This document shows positions 12,001-60,108 of a stretch of 64,000 bases of DNA, in pieces. The notes beneath the pieces were generated by a model that had not been told where the DNA came from, ran no database searches, and saw nothing but the letters and a program-made list of their open reading frames with translations. Both the position numbers and the translations under genes were made by a program. Position 1 is the first letter of the stretch. Every line of letters begins with the position of its first letter. The stretch comes from Sipunculus nudus. Taxonomy: Eukaryota; Annelida; Sipuncula; Golfingiida; Sipunculidae. Where the stretch lies: contig CM049309.1 of assembly GCA_026874595.1 (NCBI GenBank), positions 14,622,576-14,686,575 of the forward strand. The letters are read 5' to 3'.

Positions 12001-15000
12001 TTGGAAAGGTCCAACCCAGGAAGTCTCATAAAAACCTAATAAAGGTCCCCAGACCAAGAAACGTAGGGTCCAGGCCAGAAAAAATGGTTTATATCCATGA
12101 AAAAATAATGTTGCAGCTCTAAAGGAGGGGGTCTGGACCCTCCCCTCTGGATCTGCCACTGAATAATTACCACAGTGTAACAATGATGTTTATCTCCATG
12201 TTTGCAGATTCTAGGGGAGTTCTTATGGACGACATCTACAACGAGAATGGCAGTGCAGATTATAAGTACTATTACCCAGACCCAAATGAAAGTGAGTATA
12301 AGTGGTTCATCAAGTCTTTGTCATCCCTAATTTGGTCCAGAGTTGTTCCTTATTGTCCCCCGCTTCACGGACCCCGCTTCACGGAAGCGGGGGAGATAGA
12401 TTTGGGTTTGTTGCTTGCCGGAAATCTTCGATTTTCGCAAGCTGGTTGGTCAGTCGCGGATGTCTGTCTGTTTGTCTGTTTGTCTGTCATCTCTCTACAG
12501 GTCTCAATTTTGCACCAATCACTTTCGAACTTACACACTTTATAGATAATCAAAAATGCAAGAAGCCTATTGTTTTTGGTCAATATAGGTCAAAGGTCAA
12601 GATCAAGGTCATCAAAACTTCTCAAAACGGTGTTTTCTTCATATCTTTGTCACTATTAGTCGTATCTTCTTCAAACATAGCTCATTTTAAACGTCATTCC
12701 AAGGCCAGTCATCTGGTGTGTAGCTGACTCAAATTTGCCGTAACCATGGTTACGAATTTTTGGGAAAAAGTCATGATATTCGAAAATAAGGGGCCTTATT
12801 TTTCTAACTTTGGCAGTTTTACAGCTAGAGAGGTCTAGTTTTTTGCATCAGGTAGCATTTAACAAGTACTGCAAGATTTTATTACAGGTCTCGCGATATC
12901 TCGTATAATATCTCGTCAAACGAGATATTTCGAGATTTCAGTAATCTTGCCCTAGAGGTCACAGTTTTGCAGGAATCTCTTTGAAACTGACATAGCGTAA
13001 GTCCTACACTATTATCTCGAAACAGGTTTTCCATTTTTTGAATGCAGCCGCTAGGTGGCGCTGTATGCAAACCTCCCCAACATATCATGTTTTGGCGATA
13101 TCTCCAAAACTGTGAGCCTCAATTACATAAACTATAGCTAATTTTCTTCCTCTGAGTCTTTTCTAAATCCTGGTGGAGTCATTTTGACTCAATCTTGAGT
13201 CACTTTGTCAGTGTGTCCGTCTGTTTCTCAGTTTTCATCAAACTCGCCTGCTTACCGGTTATGGCGTCTCACATATAGCATTCTACAGCTCACAGTTTTG
13301 AAAGAATCCTTTTAAAACTATTACATCTTATGTCTTACACTAATATCTGGAAAAAGATTTTTCCTTTTCCAGAATTGGCCGCTAGGGGGCGGTGCACTCA
13401 AACTTGCACAACATATCATTTTTTGGCCATATCTCCAAAACTATAAACCTCATTTACATAAACTATAGCTTATTTTCTTCCTCTGGGTCTTTCCAAAAAC
13501 CTGGTGTATTCATTTGGTCTCAATCTTGAGTCACTTTGTCTGTGTGTCCGTCTGTTTCTCAGTTGTCCTCAAATTCGCCTGCATGCCGGTTCTTGCGTCT
13601 CACATATAGCATTCTACAGGCCACAGTTTTGAAAGAATCCTTTTAAAACTATTACATCTTATGTCTTACACTAAAATCTCGAAACGAATTTTTCATTTTC
13701 CAGATAAGGCCGCTAGGGGGCGGTGCACTCAAACTTCCACAACATATCATTTTTTGGCCATATCTCCAAAAGTATAAACCCCATTTACATAAACTATAGC
13801 TTATTATCTTCCTCTGAGGTTTCTCCATCACATGATTAAGTCAACTGGTCTCAATCTTGGGTCAGTTTGTCAGTATGTTTGTCTGTATGTCAGTTGTCCT
13901 CAATTTCGCCTGCTTCCAGGTGCTTGCGTCTCACATGTAGCATTCTACTGGACAGTTTTGAAGGAATCGTTTTGTAAATTACACTTGTCATATATCATGA
14001 TGATATCTGGAAGTCCTATGTTTATTATTCAAATAAGTCAAAGGTCAAGGACAAGGTGATCAAAATATATCAAAAACTTATTTTCTTTAGAACTTTGTTA
14101 ATATTGGTTCTTTCTTCACAAACTATGGATTATTTTCTTTCACTTTTATACTGCTCGTTCATCTGACTAACTTTACATCATTTCCGGCAAGCGCGTGACC
14201 TCAGGTCATCTAGTTTGTCTGTCTGTCTGTCTGTCTATTTGTCCATCAGGTGTTGTTTCCATGCAATAATTTTCCTAAATATTATTTGATTTCATTCAAA
14301 TTTAGGTCAATGATTGTTCTTATGCATACCTTGGTTGGGATTGGTTTTGGAGTGTTTATCTGAAAAATAATTCTCTCCAGCTCAAAAACAAAATTATCAA
14401 ATTTTGGTCCAATTTCTCAATGTGTTTCGGTTTTTAATCGCCTGCAGATGTCTCTACTTGTCAAAGTGGATGTTGGTCCTATTTCTCAATGTGTTTTAGT
14501 TTATGTTCATTTGCAGGTGTCCCTAAATATCATGGTAGAACTGTTTAATGTGCCCTCAAGATTTTCTCCACATTTCATAATTTTGTTTGCTTATCAAGCA
14601 TGAAAGACAACAAGAGCCCAAAGTGGGGTATGTTAATTCCACAAATTTGCTTGTTTTCATTGAGATTGCCCCAGAGCAGGTCTCTTATGGTCATGTTTCA
14701 TGCCTAGTTTACCCACACATGGTGTCTCTGTTGTTGTGTGCCATGTTTAGATATACCCTAAGGTGGTCAAATATTGGTCCTGTTTTGATGTCTAGATTAT
14801 CCCACATGTAGTCCCTTGTTGGCTATGCCTCATGTTTAGATTTACCCACATGTGGTCTCTCGTTTGTTATGCTTCATGTTTAGATTTACCCACATGTGGA
14901 CCATGTGGTCTCTCATTTGTTATGCTTCATGTTTAGATTTACCCACGTGTGGACCATGTGGTCTCTCATTTGTTATGCTTCATGTTTAGATTTACCCACA

Positions 15001-18000
15001 TATGGTCTCTCATTTGTTATGCGTCATGTTTAGATTTACCCACATTTGGGCACTCATTGAAAATGTTTAAAGTCTAGAGTTACCCAGATATGGCCCCTCA
15101 TTAGTCATGTATCATGTATATATTTACCCAAAGATTATGGTCCATGATTGGTCAGGTGTCACATCTAGATTTACCCACAGATGGTCCCTCATTTGTCATG
15201 TTTCATGTCTAGATTTACCTGCAGATGGTGTCTCTTTTGTCATGTTTCATGTCAAGATTTACCTGCAGATGGTGTCTCTTTTGTCATGTTTCATGTCTAG
15301 ATTTACCTGCAGATGGTGTCTCTTTTGTCATGTTTAGTGTCTAGATTTACCTGCAGATGGTGTCTCTTTTGTCATGTTTCATGTCTAGATTTACCTGCAG
15401 ATGGTGTCTGTTTTGTCATGTTTAGTGTCTAGATTTACCTGCAGATGGTGTCTCGTTAGTCATGTTTCATGTCTAGATTTACCTGCAGATGGTGTCTCTT
15501 TTGTCATGTTTAGTGTCTAGATTTACACACAGATTGTCCCTCATTAGTCAAGTATCATGTCCAGATTTACTCAAGAAATGGTCCTTCAACCCAATGGTGA
15601 ACAACCAAATCCAATTTGAACAAATATTGATGAATTCATCACCTCATAAAGCATCGTGTTCAATTATTATGAAAAATAGCATCTGAAAAGTGGCTGGGAG
15701 CTATTACAGGTGTCAGCATAAAGACACCGCATGGAACCTTTGCATCGCTCAGTCCACAACACCTGTCAAACAGAGGTGCACTGACTGACTTCGCCAAAAG
15801 ACAATGTAATACATGTTCCCCCTGGCTGAAATATTGTGTATTGCTCAGGGACGCTACATAGGGGCCAGGGGTTGGGTCAAGTAAAAGGGGGTGTGTACTT
15901 CAGTATATGTACAAGAACTTTAGGTATTGACAAGAACAAGTACAGAAATATTTAGGTGTACTTGAGTACAAGCAGAGTAGTCTGTTCTTAAGTAAAAGTA
16001 CTTCTTAAGTAAAAGTACTTTATCATTTAATTCATTCAGATAAAGAAAACGGCACAAAAGTACATACAGCAATAATAAGAGCACCGGTTGTGAAAACACC
16101 TCAGTCCTGTGATTAATTAGTGAACCCACTGACTTATCATAGTGCTACGATATATTCTCTGAACATCACAAGGTTTCCTTATGTCGTGTTTATGGTTAGT
16201 AGATATAATTATTTTTTGTTTAGAACTGTACTTAATTGACTATAGTCCTTGATTTTTTTCATTTACATTTTTAGAAAGCACAAGTGCCATGTACAAGTAC
16301 AGGGCAATTACTCAGATATCTGTACTCAAGTACAAGTACATGTACTTGACCCAACCCTGACATGGGCTCGCATGTCATTTAAGCTGAGGCTCCTATTGTA
16401 CAAATCTGTTGCACCAGTTTTTAGCAAACCTGTGAGCTTATGCGATGGTGTGGCGGCGTCAGGCGTCTGTCGTCTGTACGTTAAACCATACTATCTTGAA
16501 AAGGGCAAGAGTTAGCATCACAAAATTTTATGCAAAAAATTCCGGTAAGTCATCTAAAAAACTATATTGGATTTTGCTTATTTTTTGGCTTACTGCATTT
16601 TCATAGATTTTATAGGGAAAAGGCTAAAAAAAAAGCTTTAAAAATCTTCTCTAAAACTGTTCAGCCAAGTTGTCCAGTATATCACAGAAATGATTCCTGG
16701 AACAATCTTCCTCCAATTTGTTCGAATGGTTTAAGTTCGGTGATTTTGGGCTGAGTTACGGGAAATTTAACTTAATTGAGGTATTGGTGGCACCACCTGC
16801 ATCGGCCTTTTTTGTACGGGGGTCATCAGTGCCTGTATCATACTGACAGCTGCAAAAAACTTCTTCTCTGAAACCATATGGCCACATTGTTTAATATTGC
16901 ACAGAAATGATTCTAGGGTAGGGCTTTCTGAAGTTTGTTCAAATGATCTCAGTTCAGTGACTTTTGGCTGAGTTATGGGAAGCTGAATTTAGTCAAATGC
17001 CATTACAGCCCATTTTAGCTCAGTGGCTACAAAGATCTTCTTCTCAAAAACCACTGGGCCAAATTCTTAAATCCCACACATTAATTATCCTTTGTTATTG
17101 ATAATTCAAGTTTGTTCAAATGGTTTTGTTTCAATGATTTTTTGCTGAGTTATGGGAAGCTTAACTTAGCCGTTTTGCTGTATTTTCCCATATGAGTTAT
17201 AAACCTGTAAAACGTTTTTTGACTGACGCCACTGAGGCCAATTTGTTTAATATTTTACAAGAATAATCCCCTGAATAATTCTTAAAATAATTGTCTTTTA
17301 TGGTTCCAAAGAATGAATTTTTGGCTGGAGCTATCATCACCAAATTTATGCCAGTCTTGGTCACATGAGTCATACATGAAATTCAGGTATCAGTGGTGCC
17401 ACCTGCATTGACCTTTTTTTGTAGGGCGGTCATTGGTCATCTGTACATTAACCCATAATTTCTCAGGAATAGCAGGAGCTACCATCCCCAGATTTTATGC
17501 AGTAATCTGTCACATATCAAATGTTGTGGGATTCGGCTTATTTTTTTGCTATCTGCATTTACTTATATTTTATAGGGAAAAAGCTGAAAAACTTTTAAAA
17601 GTCTTCTTCTTATAAATAGTCCAGCCAAATTGTTCAATATTTTACAGAAATGAACCCAGAGGCAAGCCCTCTCAAGTTTGTTCAAATGGTTTGCATTTGA
17701 TGAATTTTAGTGGAGTTACACGAATTTGAACAGTCATTTGGCCAAGTAAGCATACTGACATAGTAATCTCAGAAATGACAGAAGCTAGCATTACCAAGTA
17801 TTATGCAAATGTTGGTCACATGACTCATATTTGAAGTTTTGTGAATATGTCAGCTTGAAGAAAAAAGCATTTTAGCCAAAGTCTTTCACTATGTGTAAAC
17901 AGATTTACCAACAGGCAAAGATTATGTCTGTATCTTTAAATAGGTTGAGAAACTACCAGCTGTTTCAGATTTGGCAACAGATCAAGAGTTCATTCAGTGC

Positions 18001-20715: not shown

Positions 20716-20797
<82 letters not shown>

Positions 20798-21710: not shown

Positions 21711-22054
21711 TTAGGCCAAAAAAAATTAAAGGTATGGTTCTCAGGCACCGCCCGCATCAATTTTAAACCCCCGCATCAAAAATTTTTATTTTGATTTTCA
21801 ATAGAAACATCAATTTTGAGCTTCAGCCGCTCGGACATTTCTTTCAAGAAGATAAAATCATACAATTTCCTTTATAATGTGGTGCTTTTACTTATTTAGA
21901 CAAATAAATATGATATTATCATGCTTTTCCCTTATAATTTGACATTTTTATCGAAACATACCAAAAAAAATTAAAATAAAAAAAAACGCCCGCCCGCATT
22001 GATTTCTGGAAAAAAGTGCCTGAGAACCATACCTTTTTTTTTATTTTGGCCTTA
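21711..22054 (-). mobile_element. AAGGCC-TIR MITE, copy 2 (full length)
   Basis: Starts TTAGGCCAAAAAAAATTAAAGG then TATGGTTCTCAGGCACC; ends TGCCTGAGAACCATACC(T)nGGCCTTA. The interior is the reverse complement of the 19235 copy ('GAGCTTCAGCCGCTCGGACAT', 'TTTCAAGAAGATAAAATCATACAATTT'). This is a clean reference copy of about 344 bp. Confidence 0.9.
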
Positions 22055-23834: not shown

Positions 23835-24054
23835 CCTTTTTGTATGTTTCGATTAAAATGTCATAAGATCAGGAAAAGCATGAAAATAATAGATTTTAAT
23901 AGGTAAAAGCACTACATAACAAAGGAAATCTTATCGAAATTGTATTATTTTATTTTCTTGAAAGATGAAAATTAATTTTTTTGATGCGGGGGGTTGAAAT
24001 TGACGTGGGCGGTGCCTGAGAACCATGCCTTTTTTTATTATTTTTTTTGCCTTG
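23835..24054 (+). mobile_element. AAGGCC-TIR MITE, copy 3 (left end missing)
   Basis: Same orientation as the 19235 copy: 'GTATGTTTCGATTAAAATGTCATAAGATCAGG', 'TAAAAGCACTACATAACAAAGGAAATC', ending GGTGCCTGAGAACCATGCC(T)nGCCTTG. The first inverted repeat is not present. Confidence 0.85.
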
Positions 24055-25219: not shown

Positions 25220-25271
<52 letters not shown>

Positions 25272-26800: not shown

Positions 26801-28336
26801 ACCCACGCCCGTGTTGATACACGGGGTATATCATAGCACTTGTGTTGTACTTATATCACTACCAGAATGCAGGTAGATAGCCAGAGGTCATGACAGAGTC
26901 ATAGTGTGTGTAAATAACTGTCGATGGGGGCACCCTGTGCTATTTGGACAAGACACTTGACATGTATCTTTAACTGATAATTTTATACTTATACAAGTTA
27001 GAAGATGTGAAATGCTAAACTGGTTATTCAGCTTTTGGCTAGTTGCAGTTTCCAATGTTGGCAGGGTAAACAACATCTTAAGGTTACACAGAATTAAACA
27101 AAGAAAAGAAAATTTTAGTTGTTGAGAAGATTTTATAATGTAATATTATAAATATACATTTGTGCATTTGTAAAAGAAAGGATAAAATTGGTGAATACGT
27201 AATGCTGTATGTGATATATTCCCTTCTATTTAAACAACTATTGAAAATATACTAATTACATGTGGAAATCTGTATGGGTAACAGAGGGGGTTTTGATCCC
27301 CCTTTGTATTCCCCCACCCTCCGCCCCGCCGCTATAAAAACAATGAAATCCCATGCATATGCTAGGAAATCCTTGCTGCTATGACAAAATCATCTTCGCT
27401 GGCCGAATCATAGCCGCCCCCACCCCCCCCCCCCCCCCCACCTGGATCTAAAGCTCTACCTTATAAAATTTTGGATCCAATAATCCCAAACTGTCCTATT
27501 GCTCTCTTTATCCAAGTTTCTCCAAACTACTTGGTCATTCCATAGTGACCTCACCAGGAGTGAATCCAAGATTTTGAAATACAGGGATCTACGATTTAGA
27601 ATTAGAAACTTAAACCCCCTAAAAATTCCACAACTCAAATTTTTTTTTTTATCAAACGTGAGAGAACCTGCAAAACAAAATTTCATCAGGAAGGAGGCTT
27701 CAACCATATCCTTTCTAAGTGCACCACTGACAACAATAAAGATATGAAAGGATACATAATATGATTACAACAGGATGCATAAAAAAATGGATGCTCATAT
27801 GCAGAATTATTGTTCAGTAAGATGAATTAATATTAACATTTTTGAATATGTAGGTGGCACTGTATGTGGGATCAGGATTAAGATAACCATATGAATTATT
27901 TGGTGAATAATCTGTTATTATGTATCATCTATTTTGACCATTTGGCATTGTGGAAGTCTTCCAATTTTGTCAGAGTGGTGAGTGCAGTTGAAATTGTTAG
28001 AAAATCTTGAAGAAACAAACTTTTCCAAATTCTTTGACATCTCATAATTTAAAGGTGTCCTGTCACTGCAGTTAAACCATTAGACTTCATACCAGTTTAT
28101 ATGTATCACACCTAAGTAACAATGACTTATTATTTTGGCAAATCATATTCTAACTCAGTATGCTGTAAAACCACTTGCATGTATGTTTCAGGTTTTCATG
28201 CCAACAAACATGTCCCCGGGTGTGTTTTTAACTGCAGTTTCACAAGACTGTAAAAGACCAACTATATTATAAGACCAGATGTCTATCCAGACTACCCTCC
28301 AGTTAATCAAATTAGTTATAAGGCGAAAGAAATAAT

Positions 28337-28670
28337 AAGGTTTGGTTCTCAGGTACTTTTTAAAATAAATCAATGGGGGGGGGGGTGGGTTATTTTAAAT
28401 TTTTGTGTAATTTTTGATAAAAATTTCAAATGTATAAGGGAAAAGCATGATAACAACAGATTTATTTTGCTAAACATGTAAAAGCACTACATAACAAAGG
28501 AAATTTAATCAGAATTGCATGATTTTATCTTCTTGAAAGAAATGTCTGAGCAGCTGGAGCTCAAAATTGGTAAGTTTCTATTGAAAATCAAAATAAAAAA
28601 AAATTGATGCAGGGGTTTAAAATGGACGCGGGCAGTGCCTGAGAACCATACCTTTTATTTTTATTGGCCT
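28337..28670 (+). mobile_element. AAGGCC-TIR MITE, copy 4
   Basis: Left end AAGGTTTGGTTCTCAGGTAC, right end GTGCCTGAGAACCATACC(T)nATTGGCCT. The interior shares 'CTACATAACAAAGGAAAT' and 'TTATCTTCTTGAAAGAAATG' with the other copies. A G homopolymer interrupts it near 28377. Confidence 0.85.
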
Positions 28671-32384: not shown

Positions 32385-33589
32385 GTATCCCCAGACATAG
32401 TCTGGAGATACTGTGGTTTAGGCACGGTTGCGCCGCAGAGATTTCTTTTGGACACAATAACTAAAAAAATATTTCAAGGATCTTTTCAAACTTGACACAT
32501 TTATAGATATAGGTGAGAGGACGAAGCCTATTTAAAATGGGGTCATGACCTCAACTAGGAGAGTGACCTTGACCTTGAATATATCCATTTTTGGGGAAAA
32601 TCACACAAATTCTTAAATATCTCAAGAAATCTTTCATGGATTTATCCAAAAATCAAGTTGGACAAAGATCTTGGATAGTGATGTCATGTACCTGAAACTG
32701 GTGGTGCCACCTAGTATCCTTTTCTTGTTTTTGTGCCGTTAAATACCCCCATCATTGCCACTTGACAGTACTTTTAGCATCACAAGTCAAAAACTGATTG
32801 ACAGATTTCTTTAATATTATGCATGTACATAGGTATGGGTTATGGGATGATGTATATTAAAATTGGGGTCATGACCTTTCCTTTGAGAATGGCTTTGACC
32901 TTGAATATTACCATATATGGTGAAAATCACATAAAATCATGAATATCTTAAAAAGGGATGCATGGATTGGTCCAAAAATCAAGTTGACGGAAGATCTTGG
33001 ATAGTTTTGTCTTTTGCAGAAGATAGGTGGCGCCACCTGTTGTCCTTTTCTTGTTTTTTGCGCCTTTGAATACCCCATCATTGCCACTTGACAGTATATA
33101 CTGTGAGCATTATAAGTCAAACAGTAATGGACAGATTTCTTTCATGTTATGCATGTATATAGATATGGTTTATGGAATGAGGTATATTTAATTTTAAATT
33201 TAATTTTAAAATTTAATTTAATTTAAATTATTTTTTTTTTAATTTAATTTTTTTTTCAAATGTTGGATATTTTGGAATGCAGTTTATTGATTTGGGGTCA
33301 TGACCGTGACTATGAGAGTGACCTTGACCTTGAATATTCCCATATTTGGTGAAAAACATAACATCATGAATATCTTCAAAAGGGCCACTTGACAGCACTG
33401 TGAGCATTATAAGTCAAAAACCCTTTGATCAATTGTCCTTCCCAATCCAAAATATTCCTATATTTTGTACAAATGTTTCTCACATTCATTGCTAAAATAC
33501 AAATACATCACATTATATCAACAAAATACCACAAAACCTCATTTGTCTGGCGATACTATGGCACCAGCGGTGCCAAGAAATGTCTAGTT
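32385..33589 (+). mobile_element. hairpin-bounded element family F5, copy 1
   Basis: The left end is the palindrome GTATCCCCAGAC-ATA-GTCTGGAGATAC. Internal units of about 330 bp carry 'GGTGGYGCCACCT', 'CATTGCCACTTGACAGTA' and 'GGGGTCATGACC...GACCTTGACCTTGAATAT'. The right end is the hairpin GGCACC-AGC-GGTGCC, nine bases, then CTAGTT. Same architecture as F1 to F4. Non-coding. Confidence 0.75.
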
Positions 33590-35204: not shown

Positions 35205-36617
35205 CTGCAATATTATGCTTAACAGGTAAAACATACATAACAAAGGAAATTTTATCAAAATTGTATTATTAGCTCAGCTGACTTTAAATTATCTGAGCTA
35301 TAGTCATGGTCCTTTGTCCATCTTCTGGCGTGCCGTCCTGCTGTCCGTTAACAGGGCACGTTTTGAAACCGTTGGACTTGCAAATCCAAAATTTGGAATA
35401 TAGTTAGATGTCCCCAAAATCTCCTTCCGTACTGAAAATTGGGTCACTAGGACTTCATTCCTACCAGAAATTAAAAACCCACTGTTACACTTCAAGGCTG
35501 CCTAATATAAAACCACTGATCTGTTTTTTATCATATTTCATATACTTATTCCTCTATATATTTCCTTTATACACACAAGAAATTATGTCAGTATTGACTG
35601 ATTTTTAGTTATGGGTCGGAACATTATCCACTTTGTAAAAAATCAGGAAATATATTTACTCACTTAATATGAGAATTGCTGAAGCTAGAGACTTTTTTCA
35701 GGGATATAACTTGATTTAATCAAAATTCAATTGTATAATGAAAATTAGATCTCAAAAAGGAATTTGATAGTTAATGAGTAACAGGAAATTACCTTACCTT
35801 GTATTCTCATCATCTTTGTTTGGCTGAAACTGATTAAATACCAGACATGGTGTGAATACTTTGCAAATGTTTTTTGAATACAAATATGAATATGTACTCC
35901 ATAATTTCATGAATAAGAATACAGGTAAAAATGAAAGTATTTGAATACGAATGCAAATACTTTCAAAATGTATATTCATGAATGCATTCATGAATATATT
36001 CTTTAATATTATTTTAATAATCATTTATTTCAGTTATATTATTTTTTAAAAATCATATGATTCTGTTATTATTTTTGATTAAAATTATATTTGGCACAAT
36101 ATTAGTTATTAAATATTAATAAATAGTTAAATAAATAGTTAAACTCTTATATTATAAGGGGTAGGGATAACCTGTAATTATTAAATAACAGTTAACTCGT
36201 TTGTAAAAAGCATAATTAAAATGACTGATAATGGACAGTTTTTCAAATACTTCTACTGCAATGTAGGTAAAGTTATATGGCCAAGGCAAAACCTATGTGA
36301 CAATAGCACTCCATTTGTTAATAATATAAATGACATTAATCCTCTTCTCAGTTTCCAAAGATACTATTAAAATCTTACATAAGCTAAACACCAACAACTC
36401 ATAATACAACTTTTATTTATTACCACACAAAACCAGCATGTGCCTCATTTCCAAATCATATTTTGTGATCATCCATGGGTCCCTTGTTTTATCTTCTTGA
36501 AAGAAATGTCCGAGTGTCTGGAGCTCAAAATTGATAAGTTTCTGTTGAAAATAAAAAAAATTGATGTGGGGGTTAAAATTGATGGGGACAGTGCCTAAGA
36601 ATTTTTTTGTTTGCCTT
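35205..36617 (+). mobile_element. AAGGCC-TIR MITE, copy 5, split by an F1 insertion
   Basis: 35205-35270 carries the MITE centre ('AACAGGTAAAACATACATAACAAAGG...TTGTATTATT'). The MITE resumes exactly at 36489 with TTATCTTCTTGAAAGAAATG and ends near 36617 in TTTGCCTTA. The joined flanks reproduce the uninterrupted MITE, so 35271-36488 is a later insertion. The left inverted repeat is not recognisable. Confidence 0.8.
35271..36488 (+). mobile_element. hairpin-bounded element family F1, copy a
   Basis: Left end AGCTCAGCTGAC...ATCTGAGCT (imperfect palindrome), then ATAGTCATGGTCC and a short GTCC region. The interior 'GGCACGTTTTGAAACCGTTGG...TTAGATGTCCCC' block is shared with copy b. The right end is CATGGGTCCCTTGTT. 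Its borders are fixed by the interrupted MITE around it. Confidence 0.85.
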
Positions 36618-40398: not shown

Positions 40399-43008
40399 AG
40401 CTCAGCTGACTATAAGTCATCTGAGCTATAGTCGTGGTCCATTGTCCGTCGTCCATCCGTCTGTCCGTCCGTCCGTCCGTCCATAGATGTGGCACGTTTT
40501 GAAACCGTAAGACCTAGGAATCCAAAATTCGGCATAATGTTAGATGTCCCCAAGATCTCCTACCAAGCCGAAAACTGGGTGTTTGCAACTTCGTTCCTTT
40601 GAGAAATTAAGGAAAAACCTCAATTATTTATTAACAACCTTTTTTTCCCACTTCAGGACTGCCTAATATCGAAACCACTCATCTGTTTTACCTCATATTT
40701 ACCATAAATATTCCTCTATATAGTTCCTATGTACATGCCAGAAATTATGTCTGTATTATTTAATTTAAAAAAGTTATGGGCCCAAACATAATGCATTTTG
40801 TAAAAAATCAGAAAAGATATTTGATCACTTAACACAAAAAATGTTAATGCTATGGACCTTTTTTCCAGTAATATAACTTTGATTAATCAAAATTAAATTG
40901 TATACCCAAAATTAGATGAAAATCTTTTAAATTTTTTAAAATATTAATAAAAATAAAAAATTGGTACCTTAAATTTTGCCCAACTTTGACCATGGCACGT
41001 TTTTTTCCTGTAAGTACTGTGGATTTAATTTTCACAGCCTGTTTTTGTTAGCATTTAAACTGTTAACACCAAAAATTTGAAACCAGTTGATCAAAAACTG
41101 TAGATTTTAATCAAGTTTTCAAGCACCATGTAACATATTGTTTACATCAAGCTAGTGTTATGCAGTTTGCAAGAGCTCAGCTCCCCAGCTTCAGCTCTAA
41201 GTTCCTTAAATTCGGCATACAGTTAGATGTCTCCAAAATGCCCTACCATGCCAAGAATTTGGTCACTAGGACATTCGAGATATTAATGAAAAACTTCATT
41301 TTTCCATTAAAAACCCATTGTTACACTTCAAGACTGCCTAATATCAAAACCACTGATCTGACTTTAATCATAAATAATATACATATTTTTCATTCTCTAT
41401 GCACATGCCAGAATGATGTCAGTATTGTGTAATTGTTTTAAGTTATGGGCCCAAACATAATGCACTTTGTAAAAAATCAAGAAATATATTTACTCCCTTA
41501 ACAAGAGCATTGCTGAAGCTAGAGATGTTTTTGTCAGGGATGTAACATTATTTAATCAAGATTCAATTGAATACCCAAAATTAGTTCTGAATTTTTCAAA
41601 TTTTATTTAGTATAAATATAAAATTAGTACCTTAAATTTTGCCCAACTGTGACCATGGCACGTTTGTTTCCCGTGAGCACTGTTGATATAATTTTCATAT
41701 CATGCACACATAAGCGTTTCAGCTTTTTAGTTTAGAAAGCTGAAAGAAATTGGCCAAACATTGTAGCTTTTATTAATGTTTTTTATGAGACCCTGTCAGA
41801 CTTTGGCTCTCTCCAGCCCCTCTTGAGTCACCTGTATGTTGACCTTGTTGACCTTTCATCAAATTATGCACGCTTGAGGCGAGGCATACATGGAATCCAG
41901 GCAGCTTATGGCAAGCCACAGTTGCTCCAGGTGTCCAACCCAACTCATCTAGTAGTTTTAACCAAGAACATAACAAAAAACAATAAATTAATAAATTTTT
42001 ATTGGTTTTTAATAACAAATTAAAGAAAAATAGAAAAGGAATTTGTTAGTTTATAATAACAGGAAATTAACTTGCAGTTACTGATGATATAAGAATCTTG
42101 TATCGATGGGTAGAATGTCACATATTCCAAATAACACCATGCAGTCACCTATGGCATTTTTCAGTTCAATTTTAATGATAAAGAAGTAAATCATATTATT
42201 CATTACTAATCATTAGGGATCATATGAAGGAAATTAGACAAAGATGCAGTTGATAATATTAATCTAGATTCCTGCTGTGTCTAGTGTGTACATTGATGTG
42301 AAATTAGTCCGAAATGAATTTTTTACAGTTATTTTTTAATATAAATAAAAGCCATAAAACCAGGTACTTATGATCATTATTTAAATGTGTGAATTTTGTA
42401 TATTCTGGATTCTCAACATCATTGTTTGGTGAAAACTGAATAAATTCCAGACATGGTGCAAATACTTTGAAATTGTATTTAAATACGAATATGATTTTGT
42501 ACTCCATTATAAAATTTCTTGCATAAAGAATGGGAATTCAGGTAAAAATGAAAATATATGAATACTCGTGCAAATACTTTCAAAATGTATTCATGAATGC
42601 ATTCATGAATATATTCTTTAATATTATTTTAATAATCATATCACTTATATTTCATTTTAAAAAATCATATGATTCTCTTATTATTTTTAATAAAAATTAT
42701 ATTTGGGACAATATTTGTATTTTTTTTAATAAATAGTTTATATCTTATATTATATGTTCTGCTTATAAGTTATATGGCCAAGTCAAAATCTGTGTGACAA
42801 TAGTACTCCATTTGTTAATAAAATAAATGAAATCAATCCTCTTCCCTGTCTCCAAAGGTACTATCAAAATCATACATAAGCTAAACAACAACAACTCATA
42901 ATACAGCTTATATTTATTACCACACAAAACCAGCATGTGCCTCATTTCTAAATAATATTTTTTTATCATATATAACAGCTGAGTGTCGTGACCCATAGGT
43001 CCCTTGTT
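40399..43008 (+). mobile_element. hairpin-bounded element family F1, copy b (long, duplicated interior)
   Basis: Left palindrome AGCTCAGCTGACTATAAGTC...ATCTGAGCT, then (GTCC)n at 40448-40482. A block of about 700 bp beginning 'AATCCAAAATTCGGCATA' appears twice (from about 40510 and about 41200). A non-repeat insert lies at about 41776-41960, followed by a section shared with copy a ('CCAGACATGGTGYRAATACTTTG', 'GTATTCATGAATGCATTCATGAATATATTC'). The right end is GACCCATAGGTCCCTTGTT. Larger than copy a because of the duplicated block and the insert. Confidence 0.75.
41776..41932 (+). pseudogene. exon-like segment inside F1 copy b, possible captured gene fragment
   Basis: From ACCCTGTCAG to a donor-like CTCCAG|GTGTCC at about 41932/41933 the + frame reads DFGSLQPLLSHLYVDLVDLS then SNYARLRRGIHGIQAAYGKP. 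It stays open to 42023. GC content is clearly above the surrounding element. The stretch is absent from the other F1 copies. Product not recognised. It may be host exon sequence picked up by the element, or an exon with the element around it. Confidence 0.35.
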
Positions 43009-43395: not shown

Positions 43396-43841
43396 CCATT
43401 GATGCAAAGGTTCATTACATAATTACACTTAAACTTGACCATCATTTATTTTTTGGTGTAGTATTTTGTAGATCTTAGTAGATTTGAATGTGATTCAGTA
43501 GTATATTGAATTGTTTATAGGAACACTGGAAATATATTGGGTCTGATGGGATTTGTCTTAGTGATGAGACCCTGATGGTCCTCTCAAGATTGCAGTCTCA
43601 ATTGCATTTCTTGGATCCGATTGGTCAATTCTCAAACCTTTTTGTCAGATAACTGGCTGGATTGATCAGTTGGACAATCTTGTAACCGGCTGGTCAAAAT
43701 AGATCAGGATGAAATCTCATTGTTCTGTTCTAAGTTAAATCTTCAGTGGATGACCAAAATTCCAGTTCCATCTTTTCTCTATATAAAATTTTAAAGTTGG
43801 TAACTAATCAGATAATGCTTCAAGGCATTCAAGATTTTATT

Positions 43842-45932
43842 ATGCCCCCGCCACAAAGTGGCCGGGGCATATAGTTTTGCCTGATTATTGGTGTGTGTGA
43901 AGATAATGACCAGTTACAGATCGAGTTCGAGTTTTGTCCCGGTTGACCTACTTTTGTCTGTTTTACGGCTCTTTAACTTAGAAAATTTCATGAATAGAAA
44001 TAGAAATTTTCATGACAAATACACATGTACGGACTTTTTTTTCGCAATGCCTGCAGATATTGGCCTGATTTTTGGTGTGTGGGCAGATATTGACTAGTTA
44101 CAGATCAAGTTCGAGTTTTGTCCCAGTTGACCTACTTTTGTCTGTTTTACGGCTCTTTAACTTAGAAAATTTCATGAAAAATATAAATTTTCATAACAAT
44201 TACACATGTACAGACCTTTTTTCGCAATGCCTGCAGATATTGGCCTGATTTTTGTTGTGTGGGCAGATATTGACTAGTTACAGATTGAGTTCGCGTTTCG
44301 TCCCAGTTAAACTACTTTTGACCATTTTACGGCTCCTAAACTTAGAAAATTTCATGAAAAATATAAATTTTCATGACAAATACACATGTACAGACCTTTT
44401 TTCGCAGTGCCTGCAGATATTGGCCTGATTTTTGGTGTGTGGGCAGATAATAACCAGTTACAGATTGAGTTCACATTTCGTCCCAGTTGACCTACTTTTG
44501 ACTGTTTTATGGCTCTTTAACTTAGAAAATTTCATGAAAAATATAAATTTTCATGACAAATACACATATACAGACTTTTTTTCGGAATGCCTGCAGATAT
44601 TGGCCTGATTTTTGGTGTGTGGGCAGATAATAACCAGTTACAGATCGAGTTCACATTTCTACCCAGTTGACCTACTTTTGACTGTTTTATGGCTCTTTAA
44701 CTTAGAAAATTTCATGGAAAATTGAAATTTTCATGACAAATACACATGTAAGGACATTCGCAATGCCTGCAGATACTGCCCTGATTTTTTATGTGTTAGC
44801 AGATAATGACCAGTTGCAGGGGGAGTTCGCGTTTCATCCCAGTTGACCTACTTTTGATTGTTTTATGGCTCCTAATTATAGAAAATTTCATGAAAAATAT
44901 AAATTTTCATGACAAATGTACATGTACAGCTGTTTTTAGCCCTCAGCTCATAGGCTGATGGGCTATTGACGTCACCCAACCTGTCTGTCTGTCCGTTCGT
45001 CTGTCCGTCCGTCTGTCCGTCCGTCTGTCCGTCCGGTGTCCGTCCGCTGTCCGTTCCGCATCTGTTAACTTTTACCTTGTGAGCAGGATATCTCTAAAAG
45101 GATTCACCTTTGGAATTTTATTTCATCAGTAAAGATGTATATCGATTAAATCTCGGTCAAGTTCGAAGATGGGTGACCTTGACTCATTTTTCTACATTTT
45201 AGAGCTGATTATTGAAAAACACTCAGAAGCTTATATCTCAGGAACCATTGTGTGGATTTTACAAAACTTATTATGTTCATTGGGACTGATGGTTTGTACA
45301 AGCTGCAAATTAAGGTATTCAACACAGGAACTTCATTTCTTCAGTGCTATTGCATTATATTTACAAAATCTTGGTCAAGTTCAAAGATGGGTGATCTTGA
45401 CCTACTTTTCAAGGTCAAAGAGCTTAGTATAGAAAAAAACTTAGGAGCTTATCTCTCAGGAAGCATTTGGTGGATTGTTATGAAACATGGTACATACCTC
45501 TCCAATTTAAATTTATAACTGATTATCAGCTTTTGCTAATATTCTAGTTTCACAATGCAGTGCTTACAGATACTGGCCTAATGTTTGGTCTATGGGCACA
45601 TAATGACCACTTACAGTTCAAGTTTGCATTTTGTCCCAGTTAGCCTATTTTTCACCATATGACAGATCCTGAACATAGAAAATATCATGAAAGACAGACA
45701 TTTTTATGAATTTGCACATGTATGGACTTTTTTTCACAATGCCTGCAGATACTGGTCTGATTTTTGGTGTGTTGCTTGATAATGACCTGATACAGATTGA
45801 GTTTGCATTTTGCCCTTGTTGACCTACTTTTGACCATACAACACCTCCTGAACTTAAAAAAATTTACAAAATTTAACAAAGTTTCTAATTTGCCACATGC
45901 GGGGGTGTTCGTGTCGTTCCGACACATCTAGT
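43842..45932 (+). mobile_element. hairpin-bounded element family F3 with 180-bp array
   Basis: Left hairpin ATGCCCCCGCCAC-AAAG-TGGCCGGGGCAT. Tandem units of exactly 180 bp follow: 'GCCTGCAGATATTGGCCTGA...' repeats at 44049, 44229, 44409 and 44589, each carrying 'CAGTTGACCTACTTTTG' and 'GAAAATTTCATGAAAAATATAAATTTTCATGAC'. The array is interrupted by F4 (44938-45549) and then resumes with diverged units. The right end GTGTCG-TT-CCGACAC then ATCTAGTT is a short hairpin before CTAGTT. Non-coding. Confidence 0.8.
44938..45549 (+). mobile_element. hairpin-bounded element family F4, nested in F3
   Basis: Left hairpin AGCCCTCAGC-TCATAG-GCTGATGGGCT, then a GTCTGTCC/GTCCGTCC microsatellite (44981-45055). 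Two units follow, carrying 'AAGTTCRAAGATGGGTGAYCTTGAC' and 'CTTATMTCTCAGGAA'. The right end is ATATTCTAGTT. Removing it rejoins a TTTTT...TCGCAATGCCTGCAG-like unit of the F3 array. Confidence 0.75.
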
Positions 45933-46908
45933 TATATATACCATGATATAGGGTAATATTGTTAAACCTCCTCCTTAGAACAAGAATAAATATTCAGTCA
46001 CAATGTTGATGGAATTAGAAAGATCACCATACTTCTTTTTCAAATTAGAGAAAAAAAAACTTCTTTTTTTTTTAGTATTTAATAGACATAGTGTTATCCT
46101 TATCATTGAGAACAATATTGACTTAATTTCCTGCTATGTATCTGTTGTGGCTTAATTATAAGCCCACATGACTTTAATCTGCTTCTGTCTGTCATTTATC
46201 ATTAACTATCAGTACCACTGATTATAATGATCATCTGAATGGAAGTGTGCAGTAAGTACAATTATAAGGACCACCATGTAGTCCATTCACTCCATTAGGT
46301 CATAACATTCATCTCAAGTACGTATTCACATACCAGGTATGTTGTAAAAATTGTGAGGGAAGAATGACAATCAGGAAAGCTTCAGAATCTTCCTGGGTAT
46401 AATAAGAAATCCAATTCTGTAAGGAAAAAATGAGTATTCTTGTTCTTCCAATGAAAGAAGGAGAATTCCCATTCCTCCTCGGGGAAAAATGGGAATTTAT
46501 AATAATTCTTGATTCTCATTTTTCCTGGGAGAAATGAAAATTCTGATTTTTTTTCCAGAAACAACAAGAATTCTCATTCTTTAATGTCAGATTTCTCAGG
46601 ATTTATGGGGAAATGTCAAAAGTGACTTCCCTTAGGACACATTGTGCATCATTTGCATCACATCAACAACAAAACTGGTATCTCCACAGAGGAATTGTGT
46701 GACAGTGGTTGAGTGGCACCACCTTCAATTATAGATTATCTAGGCATCCTGATATGAACAGATTGCCCCCCCCCCCCCCCCACTGTCTTTTCAGATGATC
46801 CTGTTATTCAGTGGTGGTTGTGTTGACAGGTTTGCTGTGGGTCAGGGTTTTACTCTTCATGAAAATGTGATAAATAAACTGATATGACACGCCTTAGAGG
46901 GGGTACCT
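45933..46908. repeat. mostly unique; degenerate tandem GAATTCYCATT units
   Basis: At about 46385-46600 related words GAATTCTCATTC/GGGAAAAATGGGAATT recur every 40-50 bp. A C homopolymer lies at 46767-46781. No exon is supported. Confidence 0.45.
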
Positions 46909-48346
46909 TTCATAAGTCATCTGAGCTTTAGCAATCACTCTTTGTCCGTCGTCCGTCCGGTTGTCTGTCCATTAACAGGGCACATATCATAACTGCTGGA
47001 CCTGGAATCTTCTAACTTTACATCAAGAGAGGTCTATGAAAAATCTCTTTGTAAACCTAGAATTAGTTCTGTGTTACCAATATTCCTTGATCTATGGGTC
47101 CTGAAGTACCCTTTCCCAGAATAATGGATAATTTGACACAAAAACTCAAGTATCTGAACAACTGATGCATTGATCACCATGATTCTGTGCATGGATATTG
47201 GTCATGGAGTGTTTCATCAGTTTCTGCAGACTGGTGGCGCCACCTGTATTTTTTTTCGATTTTTTACAATTTTTTTTCTCAATTTTTGAGACCTTGAAAG
47301 ATGTGGTCATCTGTTGAAAGGGCACAAATAGTAATGACTGGACCCTTCTGTCTTGACCTGCAGGAAACCCATGAAAATTCTCCTTGGAAACTAAGAATTA
47401 GGTCTCTATTACCCATATTCTTCGAGCTATGGTGCTCTGAAGTACCCCCCAGAATAATTAATGGAAAATTTGATAAAAAAACTCAAATATCTGAACAACT
47501 TAAGCATTGATCAGCATGATTTTTTGCATGGATATTGATCATAGAGTGATTCATCAGTTTATGCAGACTGGTGGCGCCACCTGTATTTTTTTCTAATTTT
47601 ATTGCGATTTTTTTCCTCTATTTTTGGTCCTTAAAAGATGCAGTAATCTGATAACAGGGCAAAAATCATAAAGACTAGACCTAGAATCTTCTAACTTGAT
47701 CTGCAGGGAGGACCATGAAAAGTCTCCTTTGAAACCTGAAATTAGGTCTCTGTTACCCAAAACCTTAGAGCTATCGGGCTTTGAAGTATCCCCCAGAATA
47801 ATTGAAAATTTGATACCAAAGCAGGACACAAATCATAACCATTCGACCTAGAATCTTCTAATTTGACAACCAGGAGGTCCATGAAAAGTTTTCTTGGAAA
47901 CCTGAAATTAAGTCTCTATTACCCATATTCTCCAAGCTATGGGGCTTATAAGCACCCCTCAGAATAATTGAAAATTTGATACCATAGCAGGGACAAATCA
48001 TAACCATTTGACCTAGAATCATCTAACTTGACATCATTAGAGTTCCTCAAAAGTTCTCCTCAGAAACCTGAATTAAGGTTACTGTGACCTATATTATCTG
48101 AGTTACAGGCCATGTTTGAGTACCCCAGAAATAATGCAAAATACACACAAATTGCCAGATTCCTCAGGAACAGCTGGATGGATTGTCATCAGATTTGATG
48201 TGCTTATGGGTCTTGATTAACTTCAGCACATATGCATTAACTATGATGCCACCTACATTATCTTAATTTGTTTGCTTGTTTGCTGTGCAAGGACATATTG
48301 TCAACATGCCAGACGACTGAGCGTCATGACCCATTGGTCAATTGTT
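46909..48346 (+). mobile_element. hairpin-bounded element family F1, copy c (left end truncated)
   Basis: Only the second half of the left palindrome remains (CATAAGTCATCTGAGCTTTAG), then GTCCGTCGTCCGTCC. Internal units of about 335 bp carry 'GGGCACAAATCATAAC', 'CTAGAATCTTCTAACTTGA', 'GGTGGCGCCACCTGTATTTTTTT' and 'CCCCAGAATAATTGAAAATTTGATAC'. The right end is GCGTCATGACCCATTGGTCA + ATTGTT. Confidence 0.8.
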
Positions 48347-50219: not shown

Positions 50220-50402
50220 TGAAAAAAAAATTTATTATTTATTAAGCTGATAATAATAATATAGGTTGTATACATTTTGGGATTGGAATGAAAAAATAAT
50301 GACATCTAGCTTTTATAGATGTTCCCCATTTGTTTATGGGTCTGTTGGTGTGTGTGGGTGAGCTCCCTATGGGGGGGGGGACAATTTGACCAGGGGGACT
50401 TC

Positions 50403-52907: not shown

Positions 52908-54646
52908 TGTATCCCCAGACAAAGTACCCCCATAATTGCCACTTGACAGTACTGTAAGCATTATAAGTCAAAAACTAATGGACAGATTTCTTTCATATTA
53001 TGCACATGTAGAGAGATGGGTCATGGGATGAGGTCTATTTACATTTGGGTCATGACTTTTACCATGAGAGTGGCCTTGACCTTTTATGTGTCCATATTTG
53101 GTGAAAATCACACACCTCTTATGATATCTCCAGTGTTGATAGCCATATGGATGTCAAACATGACTTATGTATGGCCCACCACTAAAGTAAGAACCCTATA
53201 GGTTCTAGGGTCATGAGGTCAAAGGTCAAGGTCACTGGACTCGCATCTTAAAAGATACTGTGGATGCATTTTAAGCCAAACTTTAATCCCAGGTCTTCCA
53301 TCTTGAATATATAGCTCACCCTGCCAATAGTGGATGATCCATATCAATTTTAGGGTCACAAGGTCATAGGTCAAGGCCACAGGAGCTATCTGTCAAAAAA
53401 TTAGTTTCTGGATGATAATTCCTGCTTTTATTGATGTATTGATTTCAAACTTGACTTATATATGTCCCATTGAAAAAGCAAGTCTCCAATTGATTTTTGG
53501 GTCATGAGGTCAAAGGTCAAGGTCACAAGACACATCTTTAAAAAGATTGTGGATGCATTTTCAGCCAAACATTTCATCTCAGACCTTTCATCTTGCACAT
53601 TTAGTACATCTGCCAATAGAGGAAGACCCCTATCAATTTTGAGGTCACAAGGTCAGAGGTGAAGGTCACCGGAGCCATCTGTCCAAAAATTAGTTTCTGA
53701 ATGATAATTCCTGCTTTTATTGATGTATGGATTTCAAACTTGACTTGTATATGACCTATTGGAAAAGCAAGACCCGAATTGATTTTGGGGTCATGAGGTC
53801 AAAGGTCAAGGTCACAGGACACATCCTTAAAAAGATGTGGATGCATTTTCAGCGAAACATTTCATCTCAGATTTTTCATCTTGCACATATAGTTCACCTG
53901 CCAAGAGAGGAAGAACCCTATCAATTTTGAGGTCACAAGGTCAAAGGTGAAGGTCACAGGAGCCATCTGTCCAAAAATTAGTTTCTGGATGATAATTCCT
54001 GCTTTTATTGATGTATAGATTTCAAACTTGACTTGTATATGTCCCATGGGAATTGATTTTGGGGTCACGAGGTCAAAGGTCAAGGTCACAGGACACATCT
54101 TTAAAAAAAAAAGATTGTGGATGCATTTTCAGCCAAACATTTCATCTCAGACATTTCATCTTGCACATACAGTTCCCCTGCCGATAGAGGAAGAGGGGAT
54201 ACTATGGTTTCATGACGGTTCTGCCACAGAAAAATCTTGTGAGCAAGATAACTAAAAAAAATTTCACGGATCTTTATCAAACTTTACATATGTATAGATA
54301 TAGGTCAGAGGACCAAGCCTATTTATAATGGGGTCATGACCTTTGCTAAGAGAGTGACCTTCTGCTGAAAATTACACAAACTCTTAAATATCTCAAGATC
54401 GTTTGCATGGATTGGGCCCAAAATCAAGGTGACAGAAGATCTTGGATAGCCTTGTGATGTGCCAAAAGGTCAAGGTCACTGGACCAACATCTTCAAAAAG
54501 ATTGTGGATTGGTAGATGGAAGAAACAATAATTGCTTGCCAAGTGTCAGTATATGCTGCTAAAAATGGGGGCCTGTTCTTAAGGGGGGGGGGGCATACTA
54601 TGTCTGGGGATACTCTGGCACCTGGGGTGCCAAGAAATGTCTAGTT
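52908..54646 (+). mobile_element. hairpin-bounded element family F5, copy 2, with AGGTCA-rich array
   Basis: Left end TGTATCCCCAGAC (hairpin cut by a deletion), then F5 units ('CATAATTGCCACTTGACAGT'). About four units of some 285 bp follow, with 'GGTCATGAGGTCAAAGGTCA', 'AAAAAGATTGTGGATGCATTTTCAGCC' and 'TTCATCTTGCACAT'. An F5-like start reappears near 54194. The right end GGCACC-TGG-GGTGCC, nine bases, then CTAGTT is identical in layout to copy 1. Non-coding. Confidence 0.75.
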
Positions 54647-57720: not shown

Positions 57721-60108
57721 AAGGCCAAAAAAAAGGAATGGTTCTCAGGCACTGCTTGCTTAAAATTTAATCCCTTGCATCAAAAGTTTTTAGCTCAGCT
57801 AACTGTAAGTCATCTGAGCTATTGAGATCACTCTTTGTCTGTTGTCTGTCTGGCCATCCGGCTGTCTGTCCGTTAACAAGGCACAAATTGTAACCACTGG
57901 ACCTGGAATCTGTATTTTTTCGATTTCTTATGATTTTTTTTTCTCTATTTTTGAGACCTCAAAAGATGCTGTCATCTGTTAACAGGGCACAAGTATTAAC
58001 CACTGGACCTGGAATCTTTTCACTTTACATCCAGAGAGGTCAATGAAAAGTCTTCTTGGAAACTTGGAATTAGGTCTCTGTTACCCATATTCTTCAAGCT
58101 GTGGGGCTTCGAAGTACCCCCCCAGAATAATAAAATATTTGATACAAAAGCTCAAGTATCTGAACAACTATTGCATTGATCACCATGATTCTTTGCATGG
58201 TTATTGATCATGGGGTGTGACATCAGTTTTTGCAGAATGGTGGTGCCACCTGTATTTTATTTTTTACGATTTTTTCCCCCTATTTTTGAGACCTTAAAAG
58301 ATGCAGTCATCTGTTAACAGGGCACAAATCTTAATGACTGGACTTAGAATCTTCTGTCTCAATATTCAGTGAGGCCCATGAATAGTCTCCTTGGAAACCT
58401 GGAATTAGATTTTTGTTACCCAAAACATGTGAGCAATGGGGCTTCCAAGTACCCCCCCCCCAAAAAAAATATTAGAAATTTGATACAAAAGCTCAAGTAT
58501 CTAAACAACTAATGCATTGATAACCATGTTTTTATGCATGGAAATTATTGATGGAGTGTTTCATCAGTTTCTGCAGACTGGTGATGCCACTTGTATTTTT
58601 TCAATTTTTTACTATTTTTTTTATCTATTTTTGAGAGCTTAAAAGATGCAGTCAACTGTAAACAGGGCACAAATCATAACGATTGAACCTAGAATCTTTT
58701 TTTCTTGACATGCTTGGAGGCCCATGAAAAGTCTCCTTGGAAACCTGAAATTATGTCTCTGTCACCCATATTGTCCGAGCTATGGGGCTCAGAAGTACCC
58801 CCCAGAATAACTAAAAATTTGATACAAAAGCTCTGTTATCTGAACATTTAGTGCATTGATCGGCATTATTCTTTGCATGTATATGCATCATGGAGTGTTT
58901 CATCAGTTCCTGCAGACTGGTGGTACCACCTTGACTTCTTTGAATTTTTACGTATTTTATCTTTATTTTTTAGACCTTCAAAGATGTGGCCATCTGTTCA
59001 TAGGGCACAAATCATAACTATTTGACCTGGAATCTTCTTTCTTGACAGCCTGGGAGGTCCATAAAACCTCTATGGAAACCTGAAATTAAGTCTCTGTTAC
59101 CCATATCCTCCGAGCTATGGTGCTTAGAAGTACCTCACAGAATAACTAAAAATTTGATACAAAAGCTCCAGTATCTGAACAACTATTGTATTGATCAGCC
59201 TGATTCTTTGCATGCATATTCATCATGGAGTGTTTCATCAGTTCTTGCGGACTTGTGGTACCACCTAAATTAAAAAAAAAAATTTAACACATTTTTTTTC
59301 TCTATTTATGAGATCTTCAAAGATAGGGTCTTCCCTTAATAGGGCTCAAATTGTAACCATTGGTCCTAGAATCTTCTGTGAAAAGTCTCCTTGGAAACAT
59401 GAATTAAGGTCTCTGTTACCCATATTTTCTGAGCTATTGGGCTTATTAGCACCCCTCAGAATAATTGAAAATTTGATACCAAAGTAGGGCTAAATTAATC
59501 ATAAACATAGGTCCTTCTAGAATCTTCTTACTTGACATCCTGAGAGTTCCTTAAAAGTTCTCCCCAGAAACCTGAAAATGGGTCACAGTGACCTATATTC
59601 TCAGAGTTTTGGGGTATGTTTGAGCACCCCAGAAATAATGCAAAATACACACAGACTGTCAGATTTCTCATTAAAGGCTAATTGGATTGTCATCAGATTT
59701 GTTGTGCTAATCGGTCTGGACTTAAGCTAATATGCATCAACAATGAAGCCACCTATCTTAATTAATTGTCTGTGCAAGGACATATTATCAACATGTCAGT
59801 TGGCTGAGCATCATGACCCATAGGTCACTTGTTATTTTGATTTTCGATAGAATTTTACCTATTTTGAGCTCCAGCCGCTTGGACCTTTCATTTAAGAAGA
59901 TAAAATAATACAATTTTGATAAAATTTTCTTTGTTAAGTAGTGCTTTTACTTGTTTAAGAAAAAAAATTGCTATTTTCATGCTTTTCCCTGACCATATGT
60001 CATTTTTATCAAAACATACAAAAAAAGATAAAGAAAAAAAAATTTGCCCATCCACATTGATTTCTGAAAAAAAAAACCCTGAGAACCAAACCTTATCCTT
60101 TTGGGGCC
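57721..60108 (-). mobile_element. AAGGCC-TIR MITE, copy 7, split by an F1 insertion
   Basis: 57721-57791 holds the left end (AAGGCCAAAAAAAAGGAATG + GTTCTCAGGCAC ... 'CATCAAAAGTTTTT'). The MITE resumes at 59834 with ATTTTGATTTTCGATAG and ends near 60108 in TTTTGGGGCC. The rejoined flanks match copy 2 at 21711-22054 through the junction. Confidence 0.85.
57792..59833 (+). mobile_element. hairpin-bounded element family F1, copy d, with about 340-bp array
   Basis: Left palindrome AGCTCAGCTAACTGTAAGTC + ATCTGAGCT, then 'CTGTCTGTCCGTTAACAAGGCAC'. About five tandem units of roughly 340 bp are marked by 'AAAGATGC.GTCATCTGTTAACAGGGCACAA' (near 57966, 58308, 58650, 58985 and 59325), each with 'CTGGAAATTAGGTCTCTGTTACCCATATT'-like text. 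The right end is GCATCATGACCCATAGGTCA + CTTGTT. Non-coding. Confidence 0.85.

Follow-up and report, generated by a model that had tools for sequence, protein, structure and literature searches.

Satellite-carrying elements of probable Helentron type in 64 kb of the Sipunculus nudus genome, and gene-bearing elements that share their ends

A stretch of 64,000 nucleotides from the genome of Sipunculus nudus (C4:14622576-14686575; hereafter the window) holds several families of elements, called F1 to F5 here, that are bounded by hairpins and enclose long tandem arrays. An initial annotation had described at least five such families, unrelated in sequence and alike in build, and had proposed that they depend on a Rep/helicase supplied from elsewhere. 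Most of this description stands: F1, F2, F3 and F5 are dispersed elements, as their copies in the genome confirm; the hairpins, the GTCC/GTCTG tracts and the 3' hairpins with CTAGTT or CTTGTT lie where they had been placed; and long tandem units of 331, 180, 166, 289 and 335 bp are present. Corrections concern F2, F4, F5 and two F1 copies, F1a and F1d. F1, F2, F3 and F5 are very probably non-autonomous Helentrons (Helentron-associated elements, HINEs) of the sort described in oysters and flies, with F4 a HINE-like cargo of F3, copied by a Rep/helicase/endonuclease made elsewhere; for F1 and for F3, the same ends also occur on large elements with Rep, helicase and C-terminal AP endonuclease regions, the make-up of an autonomous partner. 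The features of the window are as follows (subTIR, subterminal inverted repeat).

12357-12371: partial duplicate of the left end of an outer element
12372..12406, + strand: left end of the outer element, hairpin CCCCGCTTCACGGAAGCGGGG, split by F2; formerly taken as the left end of F2
12407..14215, + strand: F2, HINE; 13-bp subTIR GCTTGCCGGAAAT/ATTTCCGGCAAGC; ~331-bp array at 13047-13973; hairpin TGACCTCAGGTCA; CTAGTT
14216..14454, + strand: continuation of the outer element from the GTCTG microsatellite onward; copies without F2 cross the junction
28319..28670, - strand: uninterrupted copy of repeat M, the empty site for F1b and F1c
32385..33589, + strand: F5b, related to F5; left hairpin complete; ends in CTAGTT
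35271..36488, + strand: F1b, HINE in repeat M, from AGCTCAG hairpin to CTTGTT
40399..41860 (end approximate), + strand: F1a; left hairpin (first 13 bp as in the gene-bearing element Y); GTCC tract
43838..45933, + strand: F3, HINE; TATGCCCCCGCCACAAAGTGGCCGGGGCATA hairpin; 180-bp array at 43879-44929; hairpin GTGTCGTTCCGACAC; CTAGTT
44938..45548, + strand: F4, nested in F3 within a T-run of one unit; has a hairpin, a GTCC tract and CTAGTT of its own; passenger of F3
46913..48346, + strand: F1d; left hairpin truncated; 3' end of hairpin plus ATTGTT
52909..54646, + strand: F5, HINE; 13-bp subTIR GTATCCCCAGACA/TGTCTGGGGATAC; ~289-bp array at 53208-54194; left end incomplete; 3' end of hairpin TGGCACCTGGGGTGCCA, then CTAGTT
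57792..59833, + strand: F1c, HINE in repeat M; AGCTCAG hairpin; GTCTG tract; ~335-bp array at 57945-59266; 3' end of hairpin TGACCCATAGGTCA, then CTTGTT

Two of the F1 copies, F1b and F1c, run from the AGCTCAG hairpin to CTTGTT; F1d lacks half of its left hairpin, and a right border for F1a was looked for in the window and not found.

The 1.43-Gb assembly (153 contigs) was searched with F1c, F2, F3 and F5, each with its flanks. Rough first-look candidates numbered 21,864 for the F1 query, 9,271 for F5, 7,650 for F3 and 6,727 for F2; only the best 36-40 per query were scored, and the border counts are counts among these top-scoring copies. In most scored copies of the four families, homology stops at or shortly past the hairpin and its CTAGTT or CTTGTT, and the copies do share borders. 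With F1c, the matching piece stops at query position (q) 2143-2149 in 32 of 39 other copies (CTTGTT ends at q2144). Similarly, 25 pieces of F3 stop at q2163-2171, where CTAGTT ends at q2164, and two stop elsewhere; at the left, 30 of 33 begin at q65-68, a few bases ahead of TATGCCCCC. The 3' end motif of F2, TTTCCGGCAAGC..CTAGTT, ends at q1936 and is followed by a GTCTG tract; 47 of the other 48 long pieces stop within q1936-1964, and the last runs to q1996. For F5, 20 of 29 pieces among the matches listed stop at q1806-1808 (CTAGTT ends at q1807), the others at q1770-1839. The left end of the window's F5 had been listed as one of the palindromic ends. Among the matches listed, the long piece begins at q86-89 in 37 of 39 other copies, at least 16 bp inside that hairpin, and many copies carry a segment resembling q1357-1628 upstream; the window copy is therefore rearranged, and incomplete, at its left end.

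The ends are similar in build across the families. Left ends are palindromic in F1a, F1b, F1c, F3, F5b and the two gene-bearing types described below, Y and the F3 helper (stems of 9-14), with shorter stems in F2 (7) and F4 (6); that of the window's F5 is incomplete. A palindrome just inside the 3' terminus is present in F1c, F1d, F2, F3, F5, Y and the F3 helper (stems of 6-8 bp) and is weaker in F4. Exact subTIRs measure 13 bp in F2 and F5, 11 bp in Y and 10 bp in the F3 helper; in F2, the exact 13-bp complement of GCTTGCCGGAAAT, ATTTCCGGCAAGC, lies ahead of the 3' hairpin. No exact subTIR of at least 8 bp was found in F1c, F3, F4 or F5b. The left ends AGCTC, ATGCC and AGCCC follow T-runs.

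F2 had been thought to start at 12356, and its copies begin further in, at 12401 (q122) or later. Among the matches listed, no piece except the window's own starts before q122; 28 of the 48 other long pieces begin at q124-129. The remaining 20 begin within the microsatellite, at q182-199, and several of these adjoin another F2 copy head to tail. When F2 was excised and its flanks joined, 27 of 39 other scored copies began at or before q58 and crossed the junction at q67/68, and the remaining 12 began at q62-74. The CCCCCGCTT hairpin was thus rejected as the left border of F2, since copies without F2 run through the junction, and F2 has an outer element of like architecture around it, with that element's hairpin on one side and its microsatellite on the other. 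The outer element is a sixth one, previously merged into F2; its right end was not found. A minisatellite of 44-bp units at 14679-15570 of the window is perhaps the array of this split element. At some loci (e.g., C13:11823580-11823757), the first ~66 bp of F2, without the rest, are repeated several times in a row and look as if they came from repeated initiation at the left end; together with the head-to-tail copies, they would fit a rolling-circle element.

Empty sites were obtained for F1b, F1c, F4 and F2. F1b and F1c sit in different copies, and different orientations, of the dispersed repeat M. The joined flanks of F1b are 88% identical to an uninterrupted M copy, with no gap at the junction, and those of F1c 82% identical, with one gap of one T; neither insertion has a target duplication beyond Ts. 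Insertion into T-rich or TT sites without a target-site duplication, the mark of HINEs and Helentrons, is thus what these sites display. Repeat M itself (~340 bp) has inverted ends, AAGGTATGGTTCTCAGGCAC.. and ..GTGCCTGAGAACCATACCTT, and resembles a miniature inverted-repeat transposable element (MITE). Its copies in the window lie at 19234-19530, 21713-22054, 23829-24042, 28319-28670 and 43116-43394.

F4, previously listed as an independent family, is for the most part a passenger of F3 that occupies one fixed site there. Fourteen F4 loci were fetched, including that of the window; both ends could be placed in 13, and all 13 have the same F3 flanks. The F4 left end has 1,562 genome matches with at most one mismatch, and the left end including the F3 flank has 1,472 with at most two (reversed-pattern controls, 0 in both cases); the two mismatch limits differ, so that the counts do not give an exact fraction, and they sample close F4 copies, not diverged relatives. 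With one F3 site in 13 of 13 loci and near-equal left-end counts, a freely spreading F4 family was rejected, and most close F4 copies probably descend from a single insertion that was then copied by F3. It is also conceivable, if unlikely, that F4 is a second array module of F3 and was never a nested element. The near-equality of the counts with and without the F3 flank would suit such a module, as would the lack of any 8-bp subTIR found in F4. However, F4 comes with a hairpin, a GTCC tract and a CTAGT end of its own, and an F3 unit is restored when it is removed (79% and 84% identity over ~120 bp), except that, a few bases beyond the junction on the right, the lengths differ by 5 bp.

A search for a Rep/helicase element sharing these ends, as the initial annotation had advised, succeeded for F1 and F3. 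The Rep profile PF14214 gave 195 candidates in the genome, of which 150 were scored; none of the 143 matches listed lies in the window. The F1-type element, Y, is a Helentron family with open reading frames (ORFs) of 2342 aa (C17) and 2420 aa (C13, helper D; ~90-93% identical in DNA to C17) that contain Helitron_like_N, DUF6570 and PIF1. The endonuclease domain exceeds the Pfam cut-off in C13 (32.7 vs 27.4 bits) and falls below it in C17 (20.5 vs 24.5). The protein has the Rep motif SPHIH, two tyrosines in YIVSYVSK and a Walker A motif. In C17, a hairpin scan located an F1-type 3' end 1 kb beyond the stop codon, and the element, computed from its ends, spans ~C17:35625477-35640361 (14.9 kb). 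Over its final 34 bp it matches F1c at 94% identity. The 3' region recurs at six further places with 95-99% identity, and the match breaks off there at q600-607 (CTTGTT ends at q603). In five of the seven 3' loci a Rep match lies 4.7-4.8 kb upstream of the 3' end; for the other two there is none among the matches listed. At 18 other places the match is confined to the last ~100-160 bp (79-91%), which is what non-autonomous relatives should show.

The left border of Y was read in the C17, C5 and C1 copies; the upstream walk of the C10 copy stopped short. In all three copies followed far enough, TTTTT is followed at the border by AGCTCAGCTGACTGAAAGTCA..TGAGCT and then TTTGTCCGTCGTCCGTCTGTC. Behind the left hairpin come a GTCC tract and an array of ~337-bp units whose longer pieces match F1c and F1d at 74-83% identity. 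The outer flanks all differ at the three left and six right ends read.

The F3 3' end was found in sense in two of 13 stretches downstream of other Rep matches (C3:41770464 and C5:20308942). Upstream of both Rep matches stands TTTTT followed by ATGCCCCCGCCACAAAGTGGCCGGGGCATATAGTTTT, identical to the window's F3 from TTATGCC on. After the left hairpin, these helpers have a GTCC/TTCC tract and then a 180-bp array, with 78-87% identity to F3 across its longer pieces. The two are 97-98% identical outside the array, lie in different flanks and both carry the F3 3' end. The C3 copy measures 12.0 kb and contains PF14214 and PIF1, with an endonuclease region detected by tblastn (E 3e-17). Over the last 60 bp, F3 and its helper agree in 49 of 61 columns (80%), and 29 of 39 other scored places matched by the helper's 3' query stop at q368-377 (CTAGTT ends at q372). 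As the helpers for F1 and F3 carry the same hairpin, microsatellite, array and 3' end as the short elements, the arrays are part of the helpers themselves.

The same arrangement could have arisen had HINEs of one family inserted by chance on each side of an unrelated Rep gene, in which case these helpers would not be the source of F1 and F3. HINEs are abundant enough to make this conceivable, as the candidate numbers for the F1 and F3 queries indicate, and they do nest: a HINE of the very abundant GTATCC..GGATAC/CTAGTT family lies in the 5' part of Y and recurs in the Y copies seen. Chance flanking is nonetheless quite improbable, because Y is near-identical as one unit across chromosomes while its outer flanks differ, as seen at three left ends and six right ends read, and at a seventh by the stop of homology. 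The two F3 helpers are likewise near-identical as units, with different flanks at both ends.

To gauge how general such ends are, the 3'-end patterns of F1, F2, F3 and F5 were counted in 30 stretches downstream of Rep matches, the 13 named above and 17 of a further 18. All hits were of F1 or F3 type: 12 in sense, spread over 10 stretches, and two in antisense, in two stretches (sign test p 0.013); no F2 or F5 end was found. Several F1-type helpers end in CTAGTT rather than CTTGTT, so that the two are variants of one type. A further group of Helentrons, family X, comprises the loci A, B, X1 and X2, of which B has OTU, Rep, PIF1 and endonuclease domains. No F1-, F3- or F5-type end was found in the stretches read of loci A, B and X1. 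Loci A and B have repeated F2-type units, reversed, ~2-9 kb downstream of the ORF, and in A two F2-type 3' ends lie downstream of the ORF; no F2 right end upstream of the X ORF was found in the stretches read. The degenerate loci X1 and X2, on C3 and C5, share 19 kb at 99.3% identity and differ in their left flanks, a sign of recent large duplication or transposition; their left border matches no type known to us.

Several observations weigh against the assignment of these helpers and, with it, against the identification of the families as HINEs. The terminal SDH motif seen in the C13 copy is missing from the C17 ORF, so the C17 copy may be damaged at its C-terminus, and C13 has no F1-type end in the 12.5 kb read, ~5 kb of which lies downstream of the gene. 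Helentron subfamilies are delimited by at least 80% identity over the last 60 bp (PMC4067079); F3 and its helper stand at this limit, and F1c and Y agree in 48 of 66 columns (73%), below it. F1c is too distant for Y to be called its direct helper; given this divergence and the lack of an exact subTIR of at least 8 bp in F1c, Y would be a relative of the helper of F1c. The F3 helper copy that was read, C3, is broken by a frameshift and two in-frame stops. A sense F-type end is absent from 20 of the 30 downstream stretches, the patterns were written after such ends had been seen, which makes the count a description rather than an independent test, and the same patterns also occur alone, in the window (F1 three, F3 one) and at the F4 loci (F1 two, F3 12). 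No helper with an F5 end was found, and none for F4. For F2 there is only an incomplete link, to family X.

Two other identities can be set aside. Canonical Helitrons begin with 5'-TC, end with 3'-CTRR and insert between A and T. The CTAG after the hairpin recalls such an end and had been compared to one; the kinship with rolling-circle elements holds, but the insertion between Ts is of Helentron type. Homology continues to the TT of CTAGTT or CTTGTT, no copies with borders between A and T right after CTAG were seen, the left ends do not begin with TC and lie in T-runs, and the partners carry an endonuclease, so that a canonical Helitron identity, rejected on its left ends, TT borders and T-run targets, is highly improbable. 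Terminal inverted repeat (TIR) transposons, or MITEs, moved by a DDE transposase are just as improbable: F2 and F5 have exact 13-bp inverted repeats near both ends, and pearl elements were first described as MITEs (PMC7492417), but the repeats are subterminal, with the 3' hairpin and CTAGTT outside the right one, the empty sites of F1b and F1c have no target duplication beyond Ts, and the same ends lie on Rep-helicase-endonuclease elements. The TIR transposase family that the initial annotation had allowed for thus did not appear, and the identity was rejected for want of terminal inverted repeats and a target-site duplication.

From the observed borders, insertion sites, shared ends and arrays, protein domains and differences in array size, we infer mobilisation in trans by rolling-circle copying, and an origin of the short elements by deletion. 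A genome-encoded Rep/helicase/endonuclease would recognise the left hairpin or subTIR and the 3' subTIR and palindrome. Going by what is known of Helentrons (PMC4067079), it should cut the element at its ends and copy a single strand until the 3' palindrome halts the process, and the copy would insert between Ts. HINEs would retain the ends and use the helper protein in trans, and F4 would now be dispersed chiefly with F3, as its cargo. In the most likely origin of the short elements, the coding part was lost and array and ends were kept. The initial annotation's dependence on a protein supplied elsewhere is borne out in that F1 and F3 ends lie on gene-bearing elements. Its "very active" system agrees with part of F2, where 14 of the 48 long pieces match the window copy at 97-99% (the rest at 84-96%), and with the 3' region of Y, and fits F1 less well (scored copies mostly 84-87% identical to F1c).

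Array length differs between recent copies. Outside the array, Y is 97% identical between C17 and C5, and the two differ by about one 337-bp unit (1.9 vs 2.9 copies by TRF; offset 358 bp); TRF called no array in the C1 copy. The F3 helper has 6.5 units in C3 and 1,491 bp in C5, ~8.3 units by division. The unit number appears to change faster than the sequence, and the system thus both disperses and re-sizes satellite arrays.

The Cg_HINE elements of the Pacific oyster are alike in having a left inverted repeat, complementary to the 5' subTIR, a GTCC/GTCY microsatellite, an array and a 3' palindrome, and in their T-rich or TT target without duplication; they have subTIRs at the 5' and 3' sides, which in the window were found as exact repeats in F2 and F5 (PMC7492417). 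Their satellite-like arrays are mostly of 140-180 bp, and about half (49%) of the satellite-like arrays detected in that oyster lie in HINE-carried clusters (PMC7492417). The bivalve pearl and CvE-type elements are also similar by description, with central tandem repeats between conserved ends (PMC7492417, PMC11136912). The Helentrons and DINE-1/HINE elements of flies, mites and mosquitoes share the Rep-helicase with a fused AP endonuclease, the 3' stem-loop and the TT target with a string of Ts, and their HINEs share ends with a partner; Helentrons also have subTIRs and carry an OTU protein (PMC4067079). Those HINEs are >95-98% identical to their partners, compared with 74-87% for the arrays here, and, unlike in those Helentrons, the array here lies within the coding element itself (PMC4067079). 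The authors of the oyster study were unable to tie their HINEs to an autonomous partner (PMC7492417); in an assembly paper, none was found and the elements were supposed inactive (PMC7992393). In contrast to Cg_HINE, gene-bearing elements with the same ends and arrays exist here for two families. A search of open-licence PubMed Central, with subscription journals and Repbase outside it, returned no molluscan satellite-carrying HINE with an assigned autonomous partner in the text available. The elements extend a known kind, HINE/Helentron, and are not a new one; helpers are supplied here for two of the families.

Helpers of the sort that the two oyster studies could not find therefore exist in this genome, some with long open frames; on different chromosomes their 3' regions are 95-99% identical, and they contain the satellite as well. 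With a protein, its ends and recent copies differing by whole units in hand, the origin of dispersed satellite arrays becomes testable. Tentatively, and with more doubt than confidence, the observations may be joined as follows: the array would be a built-in module of active autonomous Helentrons, beside the left hairpin in different helper lineages, its units changing in nearly every rolling-circle round, and helpers and HINEs would form one engine that makes, re-sizes and disperses satellite DNA, including composites such as F3 carrying F4 and concatemers of F2 with the antisense-gene helper X.

Elsewhere in the window, two long related blocks lie at 6692-8652 and 16419-19124; they have internal repeats, and pieces of them are ~74-92% identical.

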